34,260 bases of DNA. Source: Lachnospiraceae bacterium (GTDB lineage: Bacteria; Bacillota; Clostridia; Lachnospirales; Lachnospiraceae). Position numbers and translations under genes: made by a program. Shown here piece after piece: positions 8,046 to 13,115 of the stretch. Where the stretch lies: the NCBI GenBank assembly GCA_017433725.1, contig JAFRGQ010000062.1, positions 1 to 34,260 of the forward strand, read 5' to 3'. Numbering within the stretch: the first letter of the stretch is position 1; the number at the start of each line of letters is the position of its first letter. The notes beneath the pieces were generated by a model. That model ran no database searches. It saw only the letters and a list, made by a program, of their open reading frames with translations, and had not been told where the DNA came from.

Positions 8046-8732
8046 ATGGATAATAAACCAAAGAAACGAAAAGGCGGATTTCTGATTACGATAGGGTTGC
8101 TTACGATTATCGCCGCACTCGGACTGGTAGGTTACAATGTCTGGGATGCGAAGCGTGCGGAAGATGCCAGCAAAGAAATAGTGGACCAGTTGGATGCGGT
8201 GCTTCCGGAGGAGAGAACGCTTCCCGAAGAGCCTATGATCGAGGAAGCCCCGACCCGAGAGGAAGAAGCACAGGAGGAAGAAGAGAAGTACCCTCCGATG
8301 CCGGTCGTGGAGATAGACGGATACTATTATATCGGTGAGCTTGATATTCCCGATCTTGGCCTGCATCTTCCGGTCATGTCAGAGTGGGATATGGACAGAC
8401 TCAAGATTTCTCCCTGCCATTACAGCGGCTCCTATTATTCGAACGATCTGGTCATCCTTGCGCATAACTATGCGCGGCATTTCAGTCTGATTAAGTGGAT
8501 CGATATCGGGGCGGAGATTTATTTTACAAATGTCGAGGGCGTCGTATATCAATACGAGGTCTCGAACCGAGTCACGCTCGAGCCGGCACAGGTGTCCGAG
8601 ATGATAAAGAATCAGAACAATACGAAGGGTGAGGAGCAAGAGGATGTCGAGGATTGGGATCTCACGCTGTTCACCTGTAATACAGGCGGTTCTACGAGAT
8701 GCGCGGTGAGATGCGTGCGTGTAGACGAGTAA
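8046..8732 (+). CDS. Sortase family transpeptidase
   Basis: A 228-residue membrane-anchored sortase, which cleaves a C-terminal sorting signal and links surface proteins to cell wall or to pilin lysines. The N-terminus is Lys/Arg-rich (KPKKRKGG), followed by one membrane helix (about residues 12-30). An acidic Glu/Pro linker (about 50-85) leads to the catalytic barrel. The triad can be read as His140 (LAHNYARHF), Cys211 (LTLFTCNTGG) and Arg218 (STRCAVRC). The protein ends soon after the Arg. The HNY/TC context resembles class B or D enzymes of Clostridia, but the class cannot be fixed by eye. No LPXTG-like substrate or pilin gene is present in the window, so this appears to be an orphan or housekeeping sortase. 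It has its own promoter. Confidence 0.88.
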   Translation: MDNKPKKRKGGFLITIGLLTIIAALGLVGYNVWDAKRAEDASKEIVDQLDAVLPEERTLPEEPMIEEAPTREEEAQEEEEKYPPMPVVEIDGYYYIGELDIPDLGLHLPVMSEWDMDRLKISPCHYSGSYYSNDLVILAHNYARHFSLIKWIDIGAEIYFTNVEGVVYQYEVSNRVTLEPAQVSEMIKNQNNTKGEEQEDVEDWDLTLFTCNTGGSTRCAVRCVRVDE

Positions 8733-8924: not shown

Positions 8925-8952
8925 CGGTCTTAACGAAAGAGGGTGAGACTAA

Positions 8953-10102
8953 ATGGTAGAGTTAGATCCGATCAGATACGAACTGAATTCCTACGACGAA
9001 CCTTTAGTTGAAATGAGGGATTCACTTTAACCTCGCTATCAAAGAAAAGCGAATTCAGGAATTAAACAGAGAAATGGAAGATCCTCATCTCTGGGATAAT
9101 CCGGATGAGGCACAGAAGAAAACCAAACTGCTTGCCAGTCTGAAAGCTGATGTGAGCGGATATGATGAACTTATCGCGGCACGCGATGATATCCGTGACA
9201 TGATCGAGATGGCTGACGAGGAACCGGATCCGGCCCTTGTTCCGGAAGTGCAGGAAATGTTCGATGCGTTCAAGGCTAAGTTCGAGAAGATCCGCATGAA
9301 GACACTCCTTTCCGGCGAATATGACAACTGCAACGCGATTATCACGCTGCATGCCGGAACGGGCGGAACCGAAGCGATGGACTGGACAAATATGCTTTAC
9401 CGCATGTACACGAGATGGTGCGAAGCGCATGGGTATTCCTATGAAGTGCTGGATATACTCGAGGGCGATGAAGCGGGTCTCAAATCCGTTACATTCCAGG
9501 TCAACGGAGAGAATGCTTACGGCATGCTGAAATCCGAGCACGGTGTTCACAGGCTTGTGCGTATTTCCCCGTTCAATGCCAACGGCAAGCGGCAGACATC
9601 CTTCTCCGCATGCGAAGTCATGCCGGACATCGAAGAGGATCTCGATATAGAAATCGATCCGAAGGATATCCGCATCGATACCTATCGTTCATCCGGTGCG
9701 GGCGGTCAGCATATCAATAAGACGAGTTCTGCGATTCGAATCACGCATTTCCCGACCGGTATCGTCGTGACTTGCCAGAATGAGCGGTCCCAGTTCCAGA
9801 ATAAAGACAAGGCTTTCCAGGAACTGAAGATTAAGCTCTTCATGCTCAAGAAGCAGCAGAATGCGGACAAGCTTGATGATATCCGCGGAAAGGTGACAGA
9901 GATTGCATGGGGCAATCAGATCCGTTCTTATTTCCTTCAGCCGTATCAGCTGATCAAGGATCTCAGGACAAATGAAGAGCAGACCAACGCTCAGAAAGTC
10001 CTCGACGGAGACATTGACCCGTTCATCAATGCTTTCCTCAAATGGGAGGCGCTTGGCGGCAGAGCCAGAGAAGCAGCCGCAGATGCCACGGCAATTCGGT
10101 AA
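8953..10102 (+). CDS. prfB: Peptide chain release factor 2, expressed by +1 frameshift
   Basis: RF2 ends translation at UGA and UAA. The gene is in two frames. A 25-codon frame-0 segment (ATG at 8953, preceded by GAGGGTGAG) ends at TAA 9028-9030. After a +1 shift on CTT T, reading continues from AAC at 9029 to 10102. The joined product is 382 residues. Joining is supported by family numbering: the SPF stop-recognition motif falls at residues 205-207 and GGQ, the peptidyl-transferase motif, at 250-252, the same numbers as in E. coli RF2. The sequence after the shift (NLAIKEKRIQELNREM, then DPHLWDNP) is the normal RF2 N-terminal helix. The odd point is that the frameshift stop is TAA, not TGA. 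A conventional caller would start at the internal ATG 9074 and lose 40 residues. Confidence 0.95.
9016..9031 (+). promoter_or_regulatory. prfB programmed +1 frameshift site with UAA stop
   Basis: The internal Shine-Dalgarno-like AGGGA begins at 9016, exactly 9 nt before the slippery CTT at 9025-9027, as in the classical site (AGGGGG-UAU-CUU). The stop that follows is TAA (9028-9030) followed by C (9031). The classical site reads CUU UGA C and yields Asp after the shift; here the shift yields Asn from AAC. The SD-like stretch is also shorter than the classical AGGGGG. Confidence 0.9.
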
Positions 10103-10210: not shown

Positions 10211-11413
10211 ATGATTAATGTTGCGATTTTAGGGTATGGTACAGTAGGAGCAGGCGTTTACCGCGTTCTAAATATGAACAGGGAGACCATTGCCAGACGG
10301 ACAGGAGAAGAAATCTATGTTAAGTACGTTCTCGACCTGCGCGAGTTCCCGGGAGATCCGGCTCAGGAAGTCCTGACACATGACTACAATGACATCCTGA
10401 GCGATCCTGAGGTCAAGATCGTCGTGGAGACAATGGGAGGTCTTCGCCCTGCATACATGTTTACGAAGCAGGCTCTCGAAGCCGGTAAGAGCGTATGCAC
10501 ATCCAACAAGGAGCTGGTTGCGGAGCATGGATTGGAACTGCGCGATGTAGCGAAAGCCAATAACGTCAACTATCTCTTTGAAGCGAGCTGCGGCGGCGGA
10601 ATTCCGATCATCCATGCACTTGACAATGCCCTTACAGCGGACGAGATCGATGCCGTGACCGGTATCCTGAACGGAACGACGAACTACATTTTGACACAGA
10701 TGGCTGTCGAAAATGAAGACTTCGCCGAGGCTCTCAAAGGTGCACAGAAGAACGGTTATGCCGAGCTGCACCCGGAAGCTGATATTGAAGGATGGGATGC
10801 ATGCCGAAAAATCGCGATTCTTTCATCCCTTGCGTACGGGAAATACATTTCCTATAAAAATGTATATACCGAGGGTATTACCAATATTGATACACTGGAC
10901 ATTGCCTATGCAAAGGCTCTTGGGCTGAAAATCAAGCTGCTTGCTGCCAGCAAACGGACAGAGAGCGGAACCTGGGCGATGGTCGCTCCGAGACTCGTGG
11001 ATAAGAGCAACATGCTCTACCACGTGGAGGGCGTTCTGAACGCAGTTTATGTACACGGTAATGCGCTCGGCGATTGTATTCTCTACGGCAGCGGTGCGGG
11101 AAGCCTTCCGACGGCGAGCGCTGTGGCGGGTGATGTCATTTCCGCAGCACGCAATCATGGCAGGCCGCTTCCCTCCGACTGGTCCGACGAGGTACTGGAG
11201 CTTCTTCCGATCGACGAAGTCCGCAATACATTCTTTGTGCGCTTCTCCGGAAGTGAGGAGGAGGCCGAGGCTGCATTCGGTAAGATCGACGCGGTCCGTA
11301 TACCCGAGGCGGAAGGCGAGTTCGGATTCTTTACGGCTGAGCTCAGCGAGAAGGAGTTCCGCGATAGCGCAGAAAAGAGCGGCAAGGTTATCAAGGCGAT
11401 CCGCAGAGCGTGA
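10211..11413 (+). CDS. hom: Homoserine dehydrogenase
   Basis: This NAD(P)-dependent enzyme reduces aspartate semialdehyde to homoserine, the branch point to threonine and methionine. It has 400 residues. A Rossmann fold opens the protein (ILGYGTVGAGV, 6-16). The signature EASCGGGIP and GILNGTTNYIL follows, and the substrate-binding region contains HPEADIEGWDACRKIAIL. After about residue 335 there is only a compact domain of some 65 residues (TFFVRFSG to the end) in place of the full ACT domain of about 430-residue homologues. Feedback control by threonine may therefore differ, which is inference. The ATG follows AAGGCAGGG. lysC lies downstream in the same direction but behind a terminator and with its own promoter. 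Confidence 0.95.
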   Translation: MINVAILGYGTVGAGVYRVLNMNRETIARRTGEEIYVKYVLDLREFPGDPAQEVLTHDYNDILSDPEVKIVVETMGGLRPAYMFTKQALEAGKSVCTSNKELVAEHGLELRDVAKANNVNYLFEASCGGGIPIIHALDNALTADEIDAVTGILNGTTNYILTQMAVENEDFAEALKGAQKNGYAELHPEADIEGWDACRKIAILSSLAYGKYISYKNVYTEGITNIDTLDIAYAKALGLKIKLLAASKRTESGTWAMVAPRLVDKSNMLYHVEGVLNAVYVHGNALGDCILYGSGAGSLPTASAVAGDVISAARNHGRPLPSDWSDEVLELLPIDEVRNTFFVRFSGSEEEAEAAFGKIDAVRIPEAEGEFGFFTAELSEKEFRDSAEKSGKVIKAIRRA

Positions 11414-11906: not shown

Positions 11907-13115
11907 ATGCTTATTGTTAAGAAGTTCGGCGGCACATCAGTGGGATCGCCCGAACGAATCATGAATGTTGCAATCCGTTGCGTTGAGGATTTTAAGAAAG
12001 GTCACGATGTGGTCGTTGTCCTTTCCGCAATGGGAAAGACTACAGATGAATTGATCGAGCTGGCTCACAAGGTAAACCCAAAGCCACCTAAGAGAGAGCT
12101 CGATATGCTGATGACGACCGGTGAGCAGGTCTCTGTCGCGATGATGGCCATGGCGATGGATTCACTTGGAGTCCGCGCCGTATCCCTCAATGCATATCAG
12201 GTTGCAATGCATACGACAAGCCGTTACGGCAATGCCCGTTTAAAGAGAATAGACAGCGACAGAATCAGACATGAACTGGAAGATCACAAGATCGTCATAG
12301 TGACAGGCTTCCAGGGCATCAACAAGTATGATGATTATACAACACTCGGCCGCGGCGGATCGGATACGACAGCGGTTGCTCTCGCAGCAGCGCTCCATGC
12401 TGATGCCTGCGAAATCTACACGGACGTTGACGGCGTTTATACATGCGATCCGAGAATCGTAAAAAGTGCAAGAAAGCTTAAGGAGATCACGTATGACGAG
12501 ATGCTTGAGCTCGCAACGCTGGGTGCCGGCGTGCTTCACAACCGTTCTGTGGAGATGGCAAAGAAATATGGTGTTACGCTTGTAGTAAGATCCAGCCTGA
12601 ATTATTCGGAAGGCACACTTGTTAAGGAGGATACAAAAGTGGAGAGAATGTTGATCAGCGGTGTTGCTGTAGATAAAAATGCGGATCGTATTTCCGTAAT
12701 CGGCCTCAAGGATCAGCCGGGCGTTGCATTCAGACTTTTTGATGTTCTCGCGAAAGCCAACGTCAATGTCGATATGATCCTTCAGTCTATCGGTCGTGAC
12801 GGTACAAAGGATATTTCTTTCACTTGCGATGACGGAGCGATTGATGACGCCATTAAGGCGCTTGAGGCAAATAAAGAACGTCTCGGCTATAAGAGCCTCG
12901 ATACACTTGAAGATGTTGCCAAAGTCTCCATCGTCGGCGCCGGCATGATGTCTCATCCGGGCGTAGCAGCCAAAATGTTTGAGGCTCTTTACAATGCAGG
13001 CATCAACATCAACATGATTTCTACATCTGAAATTCGTGTCACAGTCCTGATTAGAGAGAAGGAAGCCGAGAGAGCAGCGGAGGCAATTCACGATCTGTTC
13101 GACCTCGGAGACTGA
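11907..13115 (+). CDS. lysC: Aspartate kinase
   Basis: This enzyme phosphorylates aspartate, the first step to lysine, threonine and methionine. It has 402 residues, normal for monofunctional aspartokinase. The N-terminal KFGGTSVGS (6-14) is the family signature. The kinase core includes TTGEQVS, GFQGIN, TTLGRGGSDTTA and the metal/ATP region YTDVDGVYTCDPRIV. Two C-terminal ACT domains follow (from about residue 265: ISVIGLKDQPGVAFRLFD; and from about 340: VSIVGAGMMSHPGVAAKMFEAL), so allosteric inhibition by pathway amino acids is expected. The start is set by GGAGGACAAAAA before the ATG. Together with hom it forms an aspartate-family amino acid locus, although the two genes appear to be separate transcription units. 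Confidence 0.96.
   Translation: MLIVKKFGGTSVGSPERIMNVAIRCVEDFKKGHDVVVVLSAMGKTTDELIELAHKVNPKPPKRELDMLMTTGEQVSVAMMAMAMDSLGVRAVSLNAYQVAMHTTSRYGNARLKRIDSDRIRHELEDHKIVIVTGFQGINKYDDYTTLGRGGSDTTAVALAAALHADACEIYTDVDGVYTCDPRIVKSARKLKEITYDEMLELATLGAGVLHNRSVEMAKKYGVTLVVRSSLNYSEGTLVKEDTKVERMLISGVAVDKNADRISVIGLKDQPGVAFRLFDVLAKANVNVDMILQSIGRDGTKDISFTCDDGAIDDAIKALEANKERLGYKSLDTLEDVAKVSIVGAGMMSHPGVAAKMFEALYNAGININMISTSEIRVTVLIREKEAERAAEAIHDLFDLGD

Follow-up and report, generated by a model that had tools for sequence, protein, structure and literature searches.

Published prfB shift sites and the gene in the window

The frameshift in prfB, the gene for release factor 2 (RF2), is a textbook autoregulatory switch. 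UGA is read by RF2 only, UAA by both RF1 and RF2, and UAG by RF1 only. In the survey of Prince et al. 2025 (PMC12421855), as far as its available text reports, 8,164 of 12,753 genomes carry the motif, with TGA in 98.6%, TAA in 1.4% and TAG in none. The TAA sites occur in several phyla; the authors state that TAA is tolerated poorly, without broad fixation in clades, and expect these sites to be still sensitive to RF2. The absence of TAG from the 8,164 genomes is used as an argument for RF2 autoregulation as the universal purpose of the shift. A 2026 study of how prfB autoregulation is lost (PMC13245932, accessible part) shows for Pseudomonas that a weaker shift leads to selection for frame-fusing deletions. 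In the available text of Lalanne et al. 2021 (PMC8073009), queues in Bacillus subtilis formed at UAG upon depletion of RF1 or PrmC, at UGA upon depletion of RF2 and at UAA upon neither; swapping the stop of rsbV re-aimed the response accordingly, and the UAA allele answered to neither knock-down. Two further sources, again in their accessible parts, concern E. coli: CUU_U shift variants with UAG as the next codon have been measured and gave results in line with UGA where the two were compared (PMC5009743), and RF2 with Ala or Ser at position 246 reads UAA well and has a major role there (PMC5373646). No paper on prfB frameshifting in Lachnospiraceae was found in the literature search, with subscription papers mostly outside its scope.

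The window analyzed here is a stretch of 34,260 nucleotides from a Lachnospiraceae bacterium. Its genome, a 2.66-Mb draft of 98 contigs that is 76.8% complete, contains one prfB above the cut-off and one RF1 gene. Its closest relatives with a name are MAGs of uncultured Lachnospiraceae and Clostridia, with a best RF2 identity of 99%. The prfB locus has the following features:

8938 to 8947, plus strand: Shine-Dalgarno (SD)-like AGAGGGTGAG, read in the sequence 5 nt 5' of the prfB ATG at 8953
8953 to 9030, plus strand: prfB zero-frame leader of 25 codons and stop TAA, from translation
9016 to 9020, plus strand: internal SD-like AGGGA, read in the sequence; AGGGATTCA is the family form and occurs at UGA sites too
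9025 to 9031, plus strand: shift site, CTT TAA C, made up of the slippery codon, a UAA stop and the +4 C, read in the sequence; present in 17 of the 40 genes read in the genus
9029 to 10102, plus strand: RF2 body in the +1 frame, closed by TAA (10100-10102); Pfam PCRF and RF-1 domains, TIGR00020 at 501.4 bits
9566 to 9574, plus strand: SPF codons, residues 205-207 of the joined translation
9701 to 9709, plus strand: GGQ codons, residues 250-252 of the joined translation

Direct translation of the window from 8953 to 9030 gives MVELDPIRYELNSYDEPLVEMRDSL* in the zero frame, which ends with CTT (9025-9027) and TAA (9028-9030), followed by C at 9031. From AAC at 9029 the +1 frame stays open up to the stop at 10100-10102. 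Both frames thus translate as an earlier note on this DNA had read them, and the positions it gave for SPF and GGQ are also confirmed: the joined product has 382 residues, with SPF, which we take to be the tripeptide for stop recognition, from 205, GGQ from 250 and Ser at 246. The protein is RF2, as it scores above the cut-off of the NCBIfam model for prfB (TIGR00020, 501.4 bits, cut-off 370) and below that for RF1 (TIGR00019, 271.9, cut-off 423.25); all RF1 models remain under theirs.

The gene fits the build of a +1 frameshift gene, having a short zero-frame leader with an in-frame stop, a body in the +1 frame and no in-frame route between them. With the E. coli-type site (CUU UGA C) it shares the 25-codon leader, the internal SD-like purines upstream of the slippery codon, the CUU, the stop, the +4 C and the +1-frame body. 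It differs in that the RF2-specific UGA is replaced by UAA and that the SD is AGGGA, shorter than AGGGGG, the latter difference being family-wide. Its CTTTAA motif is that of the TAA sites described by Prince et al. (PMC12421855, available text), and the window is one more such case. A search of the window with Rfam gave 0 matches at the gathering threshold. A TGA within ATGAGGG (9013-9015, +1 frame) overlaps the internal SD four codons 5' of the shift, so that a ribosome shifting too early would terminate. Most AGGG-type loci of the family have a +1-frame stop at equal spacing to the shift.

UAA at the shift site in the genus and the family

A count of UAA against UGA in relatives had been proposed in the earlier note. 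From the window's genus 42 genomes were sampled, 40 of which had prfB above the cut-off, and all 40 genes including the window's own were read. They comprise 17 UAA sites, 18 UGA sites and five genes with fused frames. The shift cassette is hence present in 35 of the 40, which is more than chance. On a protein tree of the genus, built without the residue encoded by the bases of the stop, 15 of the 17 UAA rows group together in a single clade with an SH-aLRT of 99. The remaining two do not belong to it, and the fork that bears one of them, L009, is unresolved. Judged from this tree, UAA is fixed in a clade of 15 species within the window's genus.

Some single genomes of the genus deserve mention. 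L024 (G010) has a fused prfB, GGGGGATTCACTTGACCTC, in which the cassette is intact save for one T less than CTTTGAC, as if the shift had been lost recently. The fused prfB of L029 (G002) reads CTT AGC (Ser), the residue that a UAG state would encode, and its neighbors L031 and L142 have CTT TAA C and CTT TGA C, respectively. The assembly G033 contains two prfB genes (L003 and L152). One is 89% identical to that of the window; the other, with 55% identity, is in-frame without a shift and represents either a foreign contig or a second gene. This distant copy (L003) was left out of the genus count.

For the family, about one genome was sampled from each genus (299 genomes, 298 genera), and 293 of them had prfB above the cut-off. 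Among the best 150 of these 293 there were 89 UGA, 16 UAA and 1 UAG sites (106 shift sites in all) and 44 fused genes; one of the 16 UAA loci has its leader cut off by the contig start. In a pattern search of 397 family genomes, GGGAYTCACTTTARC matched in 49 (48 AAC, 1 AGC) and GGGAYTCACTTTGAC in 218, at least three genomes matching both, and the backwards controls gave 3 matches and 1 match, respectively. Thirty loci retrieved by GGGAYTCACTTTARC comprised 28 prfB genes with UAA, one with UAG and one locus without a prfB hit. The UAA share of the shift sites in the family is approximately 15-18%, which clearly exceeds the 1.4% in print (Fisher p 6e-12; the number of TAA sites in the published set, about 114, was back-calculated from the percentage). 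The earlier note had held that its view would fall if UAA were common at this site. This applies in part: UAA is fairly common in Lachnospiraceae, but it is rare across bacteria according to the available text of Prince et al. (PMC12421855), where such sites had already been published. The note read the sequence correctly, and the idea at its core is reasonable. The suggestion that a weaker SD had been retuned along with UAA did not hold up, as AGGGATTCA was found at 75 of 89 UGA and 15 of 16 UAA sites (best 150 of 293 family genes). The AGGGA-type SD is family-wide and unlinked to UAA. CTT and the +4 C are present in 238 of 238 shift sites (all loci read, duplicates between collections counted).

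On a family tree of 178 rows, enriched in UAA through added pattern loci, the starred branches require the UAA label to change 16 times or more. The label is weakly clustered, with 30 changes against a shuffled mean of 34.1 (14 of 500 shuffles were as low). UAA is thus scattered between genera, as stated in the accessible text of Prince et al. (PMC12421855). The sites described there are not broadly fixed, whereas UAA is fixed in the 15-species clade of the window's genus.

The +1 codon begins with the second and third bases of the stop, so that UGA C encodes Asp, UAA C Asn and UAG C Ser. At the same position the 44 family members without a shift have Asp (29), Asn (6) or another residue (9). 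The ratio of UGA to UAA in shifters (89:16) is the same as that of Asp to Asn in these relatives (29:6; Fisher p 0.79, a rough test because the 44 rows are related). The simplest reading of these sequences is that stop choice in the family follows the tolerance of RF2 at this residue, with no visible selection for an RF2-specific stop. The equal ratio argues against UAA being an adaptation, and just as much against its being poorly tolerated in Lachnospiraceae.

Three other ideas about UAA found no support. For AT-biased mutation as its cause the data point in the opposite direction, as the median locus GC is 0.491 for the 16 UAA and 0.453 for the 89 UGA sites (p 0.007); inside the window's genus locus GC did not differ between the two (p 0.61). 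Genome-wide avoidance of UGA is not borne out by a small sample of ORFs, called with a simple script: TGA ends 24 of 38 in the window and one 20-kb stretch of its genome, 12 of 28 in one UAA congener and 21 of 39 in two UGA congeners. Nor did UAA stand out as a path to loss of the shift: the shifter nearest to each of the 44 fused rows was UGA in 33 cases, UAA in 10 and UAG in 1, which is no excess over the background of 91 UGA, 37 UAA and 6 UAG among all 134 shifters on the family tree.

A genus with UAG and conservation of the cassette

The single UAG genome of the family sample (G308) led to its genus, for which 8 genomes were available, 7 of them with prfB above the cut-off. Six of the seven genes carry CTT TAG C (L303-L308) and the seventh CTT TAA C (L309, in the 67% complete genome G444). 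In the six UAG genes the +1 body has 349-350 residues, and SPF and the context of GGQ are as in relatives. Reassignment of UAG is ruled out, as it terminates 35 of 176 ORFs called over 201 kb of the six UAG species, and each of these has a full-length RF1 above the NCBIfam cut-offs (L311-L316). UAG is an ordinary stop in this genus. In G444 (L330, L331), TGA ends 1 of 24 called ORFs at a GC content of 31.5%, compared with 47 of 176 at 40.1% in the UAG species, again a small sample.

The genus's six UAG genes and its UAA gene, together with one fused row, make up a starred set (96) on the family tree. By RF2 identity (76-79%), the named rows closest to the UAG genus are L063 and L065. The genetic code and the tree neighborhood suggest the order UGA to UAA to UAG; the tree itself gives no direction. 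In a search for UAG sites elsewhere in the phylum, the pattern AGGGGGNNNCTTTAGC matched at 13 places in 12 of 299 genomes; tblastn gave a prfB hit at none of them, and the pattern read backwards, as a control, matched more often. In the order, GGGRYTCACTTTAGC matched 2 of 392 genomes: one was G308, and the match in the other lay on a locus of 1,965 bases (L351) that gave no prfB hit. UAG may occur elsewhere, since patterns of this type miss other SD forms. The genus is without counterpart among the 8,164 motif genomes of Prince et al. (PMC12421855, available text), and no report of UAG at a prfB shift was found in the literature searched (titles and starts of abstracts, subscription papers mostly outside the scope).

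All 15 members of the UAA clade have the same final 28 nt through the +4 C, compared with 13 of 89 identical codons among one-amino-acid codons near GGQ. In the UAG clade the final 18 nt are identical in 6 of 6, compared with 18 of 89 codons, and the leader upstream of them is also well conserved (12 of 58 positions variable). Among 14 UGA congeners the final invariant run is 10 nt, interrupted by one synonymous GAT/GAC site. The far higher identity of the final nucleotides than of codons near GGQ argues that the cassette is kept with UAA as well as with UAG, and the UAA switch looks maintained. With the cassette otherwise conserved, the fixed-UAA clade and the UAG genus indicate that the frameshift can persist after the RF2-specific stop is gone. 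Both contradict the generalization given in the available text of Prince et al. (PMC12421855).

What the altered switches may sense

From the sequences we infer that ribosomes do shift at these sites and respond to RF1 and RF2. It is quite probable that the window's prfB works as a programmed +1 frameshift switch of the usual prfB kind but with UAA as its stop, the output of which follows the sum of RF1 and RF2, that UAA is maintained in the clade and that the switch of the UAG genus is gated by RF1. Shifting would compete with termination at the stop. A ribosome at CUU UAA would either terminate via RF1 or RF2, releasing a 25-residue peptide, or slip from CUU to UUU, aided by the internal SD, and make RF2. 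Because either factor terminates at UAA, RF2 output should follow the summed activity of both, and as long as RF1 is abundant, RF2 by itself should exert little feedback. Within the 15-species clade UAA is inherited and maintained, and it is one of many UGA/UAA changes in Lachnospiraceae. One further change, AAC to AGC (Ser), would yield the UAG carried by one genus, in which RF1 alone should gate RF2 synthesis.

The published stop data from B. subtilis (PMC8073009) and the CUU_U/UAG measurements (PMC5009743), in their available parts, likewise lead to the expectation that a UAA switch answers weakly to RF2 alone and a UAG switch to RF1. As with the rsbV alleles of B. subtilis (PMC8073009), the identity of the stop would set the shortage that is sensed: RF2 for UGA, RF1 for UAG and neither alone for UAA. 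Those alleles were engineered gene-end stops with a downstream stress response, whereas the swaps described here are natural and concern a frameshift in the RF2 gene. The weaker RF2-specific sensing proposed in the earlier note follows in principle, since both factors read UAA; as RF2 sensitivity is expected by Prince et al., uncoupling is no more than a possibility. We lean slightly towards the view that the switch drifted from UGA over UAA to UAG in Lachnospiraceae, turning self-regulation of RF2 into cross-regulation in which less RF1 gives more RF2, with the cassette otherwise under selection. The textbook RF2 feedback loop may thus have changed hands in these bacteria.

A possible though less probable explanation is that UAA works like UGA. 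RF2 would then perform most termination at UAA, its autoregulation would be intact and the base would drift neutrally between Asp and Asn, in keeping with the equal ratios of stops and residues reported above. The accessible text of Prince et al. argues in this way for UAA (PMC12421855). RF2 with Ser246 is expected to be active on UAA (PMC5373646, available part), so that the window's RF2 may still dominate at UAA, which counts against a response to the sum of both factors. On the other hand, UAA stops of B. subtilis were insensitive to losing either factor singly (PMC8073009, available text), and the explanation cannot cover the UAG genus unless its RF2 reads UAG; SPF and GGQ are unchanged there.

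It is doubtful that the shift merely sets a constant low yield of RF2, with release-factor feedback of little importance. Such a role agrees with retention of the cassette with UGA, UAA and UAG alike and with the frequency of fused, shift-less prfB (44 of 150 in the family, best 150 of 293), but gives no reason for a stop beside a slip site rather than another throttle. The natural cassettes differ by one or two bases and make the purpose of the shift, be it feedback, a fixed low RF2 level or a balance between the factors, directly testable.

Synthesis of RF2 by internal initiation, with the shift site as a relic, is highly improbable. An in-frame ATG (9074) does occur 15 codons into the +1 body and is the first start-like codon in this frame past the last upstream stop, but it has no clear SD before it, the cassette is conserved at the nucleotide level and the residues from the shift to the ATG are conserved among relatives. 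A sequencing or assembly error at 9028-9030, conceivable in so fragmented and incomplete a draft, is refuted in practice, because TAA is common to the 15 species of the clade, 14 besides that of the window, and is also found in a named MAG with a 99% identical RF2 (L032).

In the window, prfB lies between a gene with a sortase domain (8046-8732) and a homoserine dehydrogenase gene (10211-11413), the latter being followed by an amino-acid kinase gene with an ACT domain (11907-13115), all assigned by Pfam.
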